This document shows, in pieces, positions 55,576 through 57,078 of a stretch of 64,000 nt of DNA. The stretch is from contig NZ_QRGD01000002.1 in assembly GCF_003449015.1 (NCBI RefSeq), forward strand, positions 62,001 through 126,000. Reading direction: 5' to 3'. A program made the translations under genes and the position numbers. The notes beneath the pieces were generated by a model. The model saw only the letters and a list, made by a program, of their open reading frames with translations. It was not told where the DNA came from and did not search any database. This DNA is from Aureibaculum luteum (GTDB lineage: Bacteria; Bacteroidota; Bacteroidia; Flavobacteriales; Flavobacteriaceae). Numbering within the stretch: position 1 is the first letter of the stretch; the number at the start of each line of letters is the position of its first letter.

Positions 55576-55653
55576 TATTAGTCTATAGGCTAATATTATA
55601 TCATTATTAGTCTGTAGGCTAATATTTAGTCATTATTAGCCTGTGGACTAATA
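55576..55653. promoter_or_regulatory. Three palindromic operators at a 29-bp period
   Basis: Three 20-bp copies of the consensus TATTAGYCTRTRGRCTAATA lie at 55576-55595, 55605-55624 and 55634-55653. Starts are exactly 29 bp apart. Each copy is palindromic with at most a few mismatched pairs, and spacers are nine bases. They lie between the divergent GIY-YIG and SatD genes. The last copy ends eight bases before the -7 box. This is a strong candidate for cooperative regulator binding. Confidence 0.8.
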
Positions 55654-55660
55654 TTTTTTA

Positions 55661-55668
55661 TATATTTG
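55661..55668 (+). promoter_or_regulatory. -7 box of satD, possible leaderless promoter
   Basis: TATATTTG fits TAnnTTTG, and only four bases lie between it and the ATG at 55673. Transcription would start at or next to the ATG. The usual -33 region falls within the third palindrome copy and shows no TTG, consistent with regulated rather than constitutive use. Confidence 0.5.
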
Positions 55669-55672
55669 TAGT

Positions 55673-56320
55673 ATGAAAACCGTAATTACAGGAGACTTAA
55701 TAGACTCTACCAACTATCCACCACAGCATTTAGATGCGATACTTAATGTGGTAAATACAGAATTTGAATACTTTAGAACTGCCTATGATGCGGATTTTAA
55801 AATATTCAGAGGCGATAGTTTTCAGGGCGTTGTGTTAGATTCTTCACGAGCTTTAGAATTGGTGCTTACGGTAAAGACAGCCGTTAATAAAATTCCAACA
55901 AAAAATAAGAAAATAAGTGGGTTAACAGATTTTAGAATTGCTATAGGTATTGGTAATATTAATTTAAAAAGAGAATCAATTTTAGAATCTAATGGCGAAG
56001 CTTTCCATTTTTCAGGAAGAACATTAGATAGTATGAAAGGAGATTATCCACGTTTACTATTAAAAACGGCTGATGAAAATTTAAACGATGAGTTTAATGT
56101 GCATTTCGCTTTGTTAGATAGTGTTACTAGTAAATGGAGTGTCGCATCTGCTGAGGTAGCTTATTATTTGCTTAAAGGTAAAAAAGAAACGGAGGTAGCA
56201 GAAATACTTGGTATAAATCAATCTGCGGTCAATCATCGAAAAAAAGCAGCCAATTGGGATGCTGTAGCCCTATTATTAGAACGTTATAAGTCAGCCATTG
56301 GAAACTATACAAACGTTTAA
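55673..56320 (+). CDS. SatD-family protein with C-terminal helix-turn-helix
   Basis: The 215-residue protein starts MKTVITGDLIDSTN, as in the SatD family. Motifs resemble the class III nucleotidyl cyclase core: Asp 8/Asp 11 in GDLIDST, FRGDSFQ around 45-51, DFRIAIGIG (86-94) and GEAFHFSGRTLD (108-119). The last ~45 residues, EVAEILGINQSAVNHRKKAA, form a helix-turn-helix. Together this suggests a nucleotide-sensing or -making regulator (inference). The three palindromes just upstream may be its own binding sites. A membrane DUF3307 gene follows after 32 bp. Confidence 0.78.
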   Translation: MKTVITGDLIDSTNYPPQHLDAILNVVNTEFEYFRTAYDADFKIFRGDSFQGVVLDSSRALELVLTVKTAVNKIPTKNKKISGLTDFRIAIGIGNINLKRESILESNGEAFHFSGRTLDSMKGDYPRLLLKTADENLNDEFNVHFALLDSVTSKWSVASAEVAYYLLKGKKETEVAEILGINQSAVNHRKKAANWDAVALLLERYKSAIGNYTNV

Positions 56321-56352: not shown

Positions 56353-57078
56353 ATGGACAACATTCTTATCATATTGCAATTGTTATTAGCTCATGTATTG
56401 ACCGATTTTGTATTTCAAAATACTAAAATGGTCAAGCACAAACGCAATTATAAGGGCAAGTCATGGTATTTATATGCTCATAGTTTATTGGCGGGTGTAT
56501 TAACTTATATAATTTTACAAGATTGGAATCAGTTTTTAATTCCAATAGTTATCGTGATCACACATTTTTTTATTGACCTATGGAAGTTACATCAAAAGAA
56601 GGATAATTTAAAGTACTTTATAATTGATCAAATTTTACACTTAATGATACTTGTTATCGCCTGGTTATACTTAATTAATGGGTTTTCAGAAGTGCTGCCA
56701 GCAATAGCCACATTTTTTACTTCAACACAAGCCTTAGCCATTTTCACAGGATATTTAATTGTGATTTTTCCTGTGGGTTTCATTATTGGTAAAGCAACGG
56801 AGCGATGGCAAAAGGAAATATCAAACGAAGAAGCACAGAGTAGCTTGAATAAAGCAGGCCGTTATATTGGAATTTTTGAACGTATATTGGTATTGACTTT
56901 TATTTTAATTAATAATTTTGCCGCAATAGGGTTCTTGATAGGAGCGAAGTCCATATTAAGGTTTAGTGATACAAAAGGGGCAAGAAAACAAACGGAATAT
57001 GTCTTAATTGGTACCTTAATGAGTTTTGCTATTTGTATTATCATAGGGTTGGCAATACGCTATTTAGTTTTCAAATAG
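56353..57078 (+). CDS. DUF3307 membrane protein
   Basis: This 241-residue protein has about six membrane helices and the DUF3307 N-terminus: LLLAHVLTDFVFQNTKMVKHK (residues 11-31) with a conserved His and Asp, then AHSLLAGVLTY and THFFIDLWKLHQKKD near 75. His and Asp lie in or near predicted membrane helices, which hints at metal or proton handling but is not proof. The family commonly accompanies SatD proteins, as here. It overlaps the converging gene by 15 bases at its 3' end. Confidence 0.82.
   Translation: MDNILIILQLLLAHVLTDFVFQNTKMVKHKRNYKGKSWYLYAHSLLAGVLTYIILQDWNQFLIPIVIVITHFFIDLWKLHQKKDNLKYFIIDQILHLMILVIAWLYLINGFSEVLPAIATFFTSTQALAIFTGYLIVIFPVGFIIGKATERWQKEISNEEAQSSLNKAGRYIGIFERILVLTFILINNFAAIGFLIGAKSILRFSDTKGARKQTEYVLIGTLMSFAICIIIGLAIRYLVFK

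Follow-up and report, generated by a model that had tools for sequence, protein, structure and literature searches.

The question raised by this locus is whether SatD makes a nucleotide, binds one, or has only the shape of proteins that do. Its gene (satD, positions 55673..56320, forward strand, 215 amino acids) lies in a 64,000-nucleotide stretch of the Aureibaculum luteum genome, hereafter the window. The initial annotation reported this open reading frame with four peptide motifs (GDLIDST, RGDSFQ, RIAIGIG and GEAFHFSGR), which are found at exactly the coordinates it gave, and suggested that the motifs followed those of class III nucleotidyl cyclases and that, with a C-terminal helix-turn-helix (HTH), the protein might be a nucleotide-binding or nucleotide-making regulator.

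The window protein passes the cut-off of the Pfam SatD family (PF16264; sat operon of S. mutans) with 31.6 bits against 29. Acid tolerance is linked to the sat operon in passages of two papers (PMC10326533, PMC12077213), and a table for S. suis lists satD as a 'DNA-binding protein' (PMC12005413). According to a Tn-seq meta-analysis of S. pyogenes, satD is present in 178 of 249 genomes and, alone among the accessory genes, ranks in the top quarter for essentiality (PMC11323703). A repressor or antitoxin that restrains a harmful neighbour would fit such a pattern, in which a gene is essential to the genomes that carry it yet dispensable to the others; the streptococcal essentiality is tied to the present SatD by family name. 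No fold, operator or mechanism for SatD was found in titles, abstracts and passages of the mostly non-subscription literature, among the matches listed, and the fold, operator array and partner module of the present SatD are not described in the passages on the sat operon.

The structure was predicted by AlphaFold2 from an alignment of 54 SatD proteins (A1; the window protein and 53 from other genomes), and the model has a mean pLDDT of 94.8 and a pTM of 0.92. Model, hhalign comparison and conservation together place a predicted nucleotidyl-cyclase-like palm domain at residues 1-131 (55673..56065, forward strand), with strands 2-9, 40-45, 49-54, 87-94 and 128-131 and helices 17-38, 57-72 and 109-120; the helices after the palm are 135-152, 157-167, 172-179, 183-192 and 195-214. 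A Foldseek search of the PDB with the model returned 75 matches with E up to 0.001 (best 4.9e-5), and the best 50 of these 75 were all class III-type cyclases or GGDEF domains, with class III at the top. By VIA-align, soluble guanylate cyclase and GTP cyclohydrolase III both gave Z 10.3 at 2.9 A (137 and 115 residues), and both GGDEF and Cmr2/Cas10 gave Z 9.8; class III, GTP cyclohydrolase III, GGDEF and the Cas10 palm, which share this superfamily fold, are thus structurally tied (Z 9.8-10.3). Structure prediction and comparison with cyclases therefore return for SatD the palm fold that had been proposed from the motifs, and not a different one. As modeled, the fold of SatD is that of the cyclase superfamily; cyclase activity is a separate claim. 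Sequence searches of the PDB gave chance-level matches only with the single protein, and with the A1 profile HTH proteins came first (best E 0.0017), the cyclase Ma1120 being not significant at E 0.16. The single protein used as query against genome contigs found 6 loci, with Aureibaculum among the close relatives that carry a name.

Comparison of A1 by hhalign with 19 class III cyclase domains of the same order gave a score of 49.8 (probability 92.9, E 3.7e-7) and paired D8 and D48 with the two invariant metal Asp of the cyclases, as the initial annotation had surmised for its first two motifs. Against the SatD profile, 100 column-shuffled class III alignments scored 12.3 on average and 19.7 at most, while two partner-protein profiles reached 13.5 and 11.9 and reversal of the cyclase profile gave 9.7. 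Chance resemblance to cyclases was rejected on these controls. Seven E. coli GGDEF domains scored 36.8 (probability 72.4) against A1 and 28.8 against the class III set, and in sequence profile SatD is closer to class III than to GGDEF (49.8 vs 36.8).

Conservation was assessed over 96 non-redundant SatD loci, defined by a protein of at least 120 aa, less than 60% shared 4-mers and at least 200 bp upstream. D48 (codon 55814-55816, forward strand, as for those following) is kept in 96/96, S12 (55706-55708) in 95/95 and D8 (55694-55696) in 94 of 95 readable sequences, followed by Q51 and G108 (93/96 each) and G94 (92/96), and both metal Asp are retained down to 16-23% identity. The aspartates on which the earlier proposal turned are therefore conserved. 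Its pairing of RIAIGIG with the RIGIHxG segment of cyclases is also borne out by the profile alignment. The correspondence drawn between GEAFHFSGR and the GxxVNxAAR motif was not borne out: the alignment has a gap there, position 112, at the place of the class III Asn, is variable (its six commonest residues over the 96 sequences are I, T, Q, H, V and Y) and R116 is Arg in 32/96. The class III likeness thus stands for the palm fold, the metal Asp and the RIGIHxG segment, is not supported for the GxxVNxAAR motif and fails for the Asn/Arg pair. In the base-recognition pair region, the SatD/class III alignment ahead of the GD loop varies between runs.

These residues bear on the reading of SatD as a genuine adenylyl or guanylyl cyclase of class III to which the HTH is an accessory, a reading that we consider extremely improbable. 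Class III enzymes (PF00211) provide the best profile match and the top Foldseek matches, and share with SatD the palm, two metal Asp and a RIGIHxG-like strand; SatD differs in its HTH, in being paired with a membrane protein, and in lacking the Asn/Arg transition-state pair (N133 and R137 of A2), which is not kept in the 96 sequences, so that identity as a full class III enzyme was rejected. Nor does the window SatD match PF00211 when E values as high as 5 are allowed, and its structural Z is tied among class III, GGDEF, Cas10 and GTP cyclohydrolase III. The GGDEF family is no closer a model, its sequence match being the weaker one. The GG[D/E]EF signature is replaced by RGDSFQ in the window SatD and mostly by [RL]GD[ES]FQ among the 54 members, with D48 aligned on GG[D/E]EF and K122 (codon 56036-56038; Lys in 83/96, so not invariant) on the ALYxAK lysine. 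Three PF00211 cyclase matches occur elsewhere in the same genome, and in an order-level survey of 60 genomes GGDEF matches were found in 0/60 and PF00211 cyclases in 14/60. The DUF2652 proteins of Bacteroidetes are likewise an uncharacterised cyclase-like group recognised by profiles; they form a different Pfam family, and the text passages of that paper do not mention SatD (PMC4886424). DUF2652 gives no match to the window SatD with E values up to 5 allowed.

Judging by residue conservation, SatD very likely holds a metal-nucleotide site, with D8 and D48 as the candidate residues. A metal-nucleotide ligand is favored because the near-invariance of D8, S12, D48 and Q51 is hard to explain otherwise. 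The same near-invariance, over 96 divergent sequences, argues against a palm that is a dead cyclase fold serving dimerisation only, SatD being then a plain autorepressor with no nucleotide ligand. We regard this as distinctly unlikely, even though the class III catalytic positions beyond the two Asp are not kept and the operator array described below would alone suffice for autoregulation.

The C-terminal HTH is placed at residues 157-192 (56141..56248, forward strand), with the recognition helix at about 183-192, by the model helices (157-167, 172-179 and 183-192), by loose Pfam HTH matches across members and by covariation with the operator. With E up to 1 allowed, HTH_23 matches 30 of the 54 members, the best of them at 6.3e-6, and the window protein's own HTH match falls under the curated cut-off (13.8 vs 24.6 bits). 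The HTH proposed from the sequence is thus backed by the model and by HTH families in relatives, and its DNA-binding role is a prediction.

Upstream of satD lie three palindromic sites, which we treat as candidate operators: TATTAGTCTATAGGCTAATA itself (operator 1, 55576..55595, a pattern match with 0 mismatches) and its variants at 55605..55624 (operator 2, retained in close relatives) and 55634..55653 (operator 3), with direct-repeat spacings of 29 and 29 bp. The TATTAGTCTATAGGCTAATA pattern has 6 matches in the window (the 3 sites on both strands, at most 2 mismatches) against 0.2 expected. Directly downstream of operator 3 is a promoter-like element, TATATTTG (55661..55668, forward strand), 4 bp before the satD ATG and found in 11/11 aligned upstream regions. 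The -7 promoter element of Bacteroidota has the consensus TAnnTTTG, and by resemblance to that consensus we presume TATATTTG to be such an element. A scan for sigma-70-type promoters found 11, against 12.2 in shuffles. Because TATATTTG ends 4 bp before the ATG, the satD mRNA may be nearly leaderless. Close relatives keep the palindromes, and in two of them (L004, L008) array and TATATTTG lie about 90 bp farther upstream, which implies a leader there. The position of operator 3 just upstream of the presumed -7 box suggests repression. A gene for a GIY-YIG domain protein (PF01541; 55172-55522, reverse strand) is divergent to satD; since it starts 53 bp from operator 1, the promoter of this gene may likewise come under the influence of the array.

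There are 22 occurrences of ATTAG-N8-CTAAT in this genome, against 7 for the reversed control, and inner symmetry is found only in the three at satD. The exact operator occurs at satD only; with one mismatch allowed there are five scattered single sites, against 14 for the reversed control pattern. Operator-like sites are thus confined in this genome to the promoter of SatD, which presumably occupies them. Within the genus, 11/17 genomes have the exact operator, 10 of them only beside satD, and the eleventh (G010) has one exact copy and no SatD match. The five other SatD genomes of the genus are without it and have either variants (L010, L012) or a distant SatD (G002, G004, G005). In L010 both palindrome arms have changed together, to TCAG..CTGA, and the recognition helix differs from the others too.

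The array is a property of many members of the family. For each of the 96 non-redundant satD genes we searched the 260 bp upstream for pairs of palindromes separated by 20-70 bp; as gene starts were assigned by script, some of these upstream stretches may be shifted. A strict scan found pairs in 16/96 loci, with spacings of 29 (9 loci), 28 (6) and 58 (1), compared with a mean of 0.325 (maximum 3) in shuffles and 1/378 control windows inside the loci. A looser scan found 40/96 loci at 28 or 29 bp (on average 0.43 in shuffles, maximum 3), with 56 and 58 occurring as doubles and any other spacing in at most 2 loci. Direct repeats at 28/29 bp were found in 52/96 loci (null 0.45, maximum 2), or in 58/96 if multiples of 28/29 are included (null 1.2, maximum 4). 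The union of palindrome and direct-repeat tests at 28/29 bp is 62/96 loci, each test expecting about 0.4, and by both tests such repeats are absent in the other 34. Among the 26 loci of the set within L031-L059, mostly of partner types B and C, only L048 passed the palindrome test and 11 more passed the direct-repeat test only. These sparse passes, with the 34 loci lacking repeats, indicate that the array is not universal or that its form varies. The 40 palindrome arrays comprise three sites in 25 loci, two in 9, four in 4, five in 1 and eight in 1, the last being the longest, with eight tandem palindromes at 29 bp pitch upstream of satD in L143.

While the pitch is constant, the operator sequences diverge (TTAG, TAAG, TTCC, TCGG, CAAC and others). 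One fixed operator for the whole family was considered and rejected, as the sequence drifts and the pitch does not. Operator sequence and pitch track the SatD subfamily, and operator distance correlates with recognition-helix distance (Mantel r 0.318); given the N-domain, the partial Mantel r between operator half-site and recognition helix is a modest 0.215 (p 0.0085, 2000 permutations). If the array belonged to another regulator and the SatD HTH had a different role, the modest Mantel signal and the indirect assignment of SatD as the binder would be as expected; this is nevertheless very unlikely, given that 10 of the 11 genus genomes with the exact sites have them at satD and nowhere else, that sequence and pitch follow the subfamily of SatD, and that the same pitch is found upstream of satD in 5/6 loci of other phyla and archaea, a count made with no shuffle control.

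The second gene of the locus starts 32 bp after satD and encodes a membrane protein of 241 aa (56353..57078, forward strand; PF11750, E 1.9e-25) with about 6 TM segments as counted by a simple hydropathy script. It consists of a DUF3307 region (residues 6-110, 56368..56682, forward strand, by Pfam match and conservation), in which H14, D18, Q22, H43, H71, D75, K78, D92, Q93 and H96 are invariant, and a C-terminal membrane module (residues ~162-241, 56836..57075, forward strand). The partner model has a pLDDT of 87.6, and its comparison with the PDB gave nothing usable (best match E 1.8). A YdjM-like hydrolase identity for DUF3307 was rejected (hhalign probability 0.3%). The DUF3307 region alone (56353-56700) matches the phage family phrog_2470 (E 6.3e-15), a membrane protein classed under host takeover.

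SatD and DUF3307 are each present in 54/100 related genomes, the same 54 when the lists were matched by eye (Fisher p 1.4e-29, with related genomes treated as independent). DUF3307 was found in 2/14 control genomes and PF16264 in 0/14, which suggests that DUF3307 may occur without SatD, the PF16264 genome search being insensitive and missing divergent SatD, the window's own among them. Among the first 60 loci with SatD, a set that includes close relatives, a script found a partner ORF in 58, and 57 of these 58 have at least 2 predicted TM segments, against 14/58 window genes. The satD and partner genes overlap in 36/57 loci, by 4 bp in 27 of them, excluding L040 with its frameshifted partner. 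There are three main kinds of partner, namely the DUF3307 protein, another of ~245 aa and one of ~110 aa; Pfam found no domain above cut-off in eight representatives of the latter two.

All three kinds share the one C-terminal module, as indicated by hhalign between partner types (probabilities 99.4, 93.8 and 95.1), by alignment and by genome search. Its common motif is GxxERxF...AK..RF...EYxLxGTLxS, and G, E-R, K, L, G and S are invariant in a 32-row alignment. The C-terminal half of the DUF3307 protein lies outside the Pfam match, and the module stands nearly alone in the ~110 aa proteins. It is matched by 56/58 partner ORFs, the exceptions being L007 (contig end) and L040 (frameshift). In DUF3307-type partners of L126-L129, the module match passes one in-frame TAA stop codon.

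A profile search with the module gave 119 matches in 103/296 genomes of the phylum, and 110 of the 119 adjoin SatD: 30/30 in L106-L135, 48 at most 2.5 kb from a PF16264 match, and 32 in 31 of 40 further loci (the 41 matches needing a check there lie on 40 stretches, two sharing one locus). The 9 others are 3 at contig ends (L147, L162, L164), 4 weak matches (L172-L175, E 6e-7 to 5e-4) and 2 DUF3307-module genes with no SatD (L167, L168). Because the profile was built from SatD partners, partly of the same genomes, unlike module proteins may be missed. The two genes of L167 and L168 are preceded by a ThiF/MoeB-like gene, named by reading its sequence. In the reverse direction, 68/73 PF16264 matches have the module at most 2.5 kb away, and the other five are two at contig ends (L035, L177), L053, with a partner that gives a match of E 1e-9, and the true exceptions L176 and L178, with SatD and no membrane partner. 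In L176 and L178, TLDDEFQ replaces TLGDEFQ in SatD, and the next gene, also named by reading, is P-loop kinase-like. The module is thus a near-obligate companion of SatD, which it nearly always accompanies.

This companion bears on the reading of SatD as a working enzyme, either a nucleotidyl cyclase or another synthase that uses NTPs, whose nucleotide signal would be read by the membrane partner. Pycsar defense pairs a cyclase with a membrane effector, and the SatD pair resembles it in its two-gene logic of a cyclase fold beside a membrane protein; SatD differs in carrying an HTH and an operator array, and such a synthase would in addition regulate its own operon, a part that overlaps with autoregulation. 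Besides the near-obligate membrane partner, the retention of both metal Asp down to the lowest identities, the GD loop resembling GDEF and the alignment of K122 with the GGDEF lysine speak for synthesis. The class III Asn/Arg pair is not conserved, however, and GG[DE]EF is absent; PADLOC (library of 2023) gave no match for SatD and only a chance-level Cas3 match for the partner (E 0.037), and the scanned partners have no Pfam nucleotide-binding domain. On balance an active synthase seems to us rather unlikely. By the palm domain, the HTH and the satD-specific array, all read from sequence and models, 'nucleotide-binding regulator' appears the better-supported half of the initial suggestion.

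We therefore consider it probable that SatD is a one-component autoregulator that senses a nucleotide through its palm domain, binds the row of operators and most likely represses satD together with its partner. The fold, the conserved metal-site residues, the satD-specific operator-like array and the near-obligate partner module are the parts that computation supports. In the mechanism that we propose, dimers of SatD would attach through the HTH to the successive palindromes, mostly three, whose pitch is fixed at 28-29 bp, and this binding over the satD promoter would most likely repress, rather than activate, the operon that satD forms with the gene of the membrane partner. The likely signal would be a nucleotide bound with Mg in the D8/D48 site, which would either tighten the array or release it; on release, SatD and the membrane partner would be made, and the conserved C-terminal module of the partner may couple back to SatD.

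The pair is not restricted to this phylum. In plasmid records, tblastn found SatD in 10, from three haloarchaeal genera, Sphingomonas, Agrobacterium, Fusobacterium and, as a partial match, Arthrobacter. The module adjoins SatD in 6/6 of those examined (E 1e-14 to 4e-23), and a repeat spaced by 28 or 29 bp is present upstream of satD in all of the six but Fusobacterium, by a test with a loose threshold (10 of 12 bases) and no shuffles, which limits the weight of that count. In two of the six a further spacing appears as well (41, 76), and the loci of Halorientalis and Haloplanus are close relatives. The SatD/module pair thus recurs in haloarchaea, alphaproteobacteria and Fusobacterium. In phage records tblastn with the SatD of L032 as query found no match, and a scan of viral contigs, which detects only close relatives of the query, found none. 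We suggest, as a tentative extension, that SatD and its partner could be a self-contained, cross-domain mobile sensing cassette in which assembly on the operator row, in response to a nucleotide that SatD either senses or itself makes, restrains a membrane effector whose release would harm the cell.

SatD is a widespread family that in the literature examined has no mechanism, yet in S. pyogenes no other accessory gene ranks in the top quarter for essentiality. An autoregulated HTH regulator is a kind already known; what is unusual here is the sensor, the operator geometry and the partner. A cyclase fold serving as the sensor of a transcription factor, operators that drift at constant pitch, and a membrane module would together provide a testable explanation, and in loci that have the array the promoter of satD itself reveals the candidate site to which its SatD would bind. 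If the extended proposal is true, SatD and its partner would be a new nucleotide-gated guard or toxin-control system of bacteria and haloarchaea.
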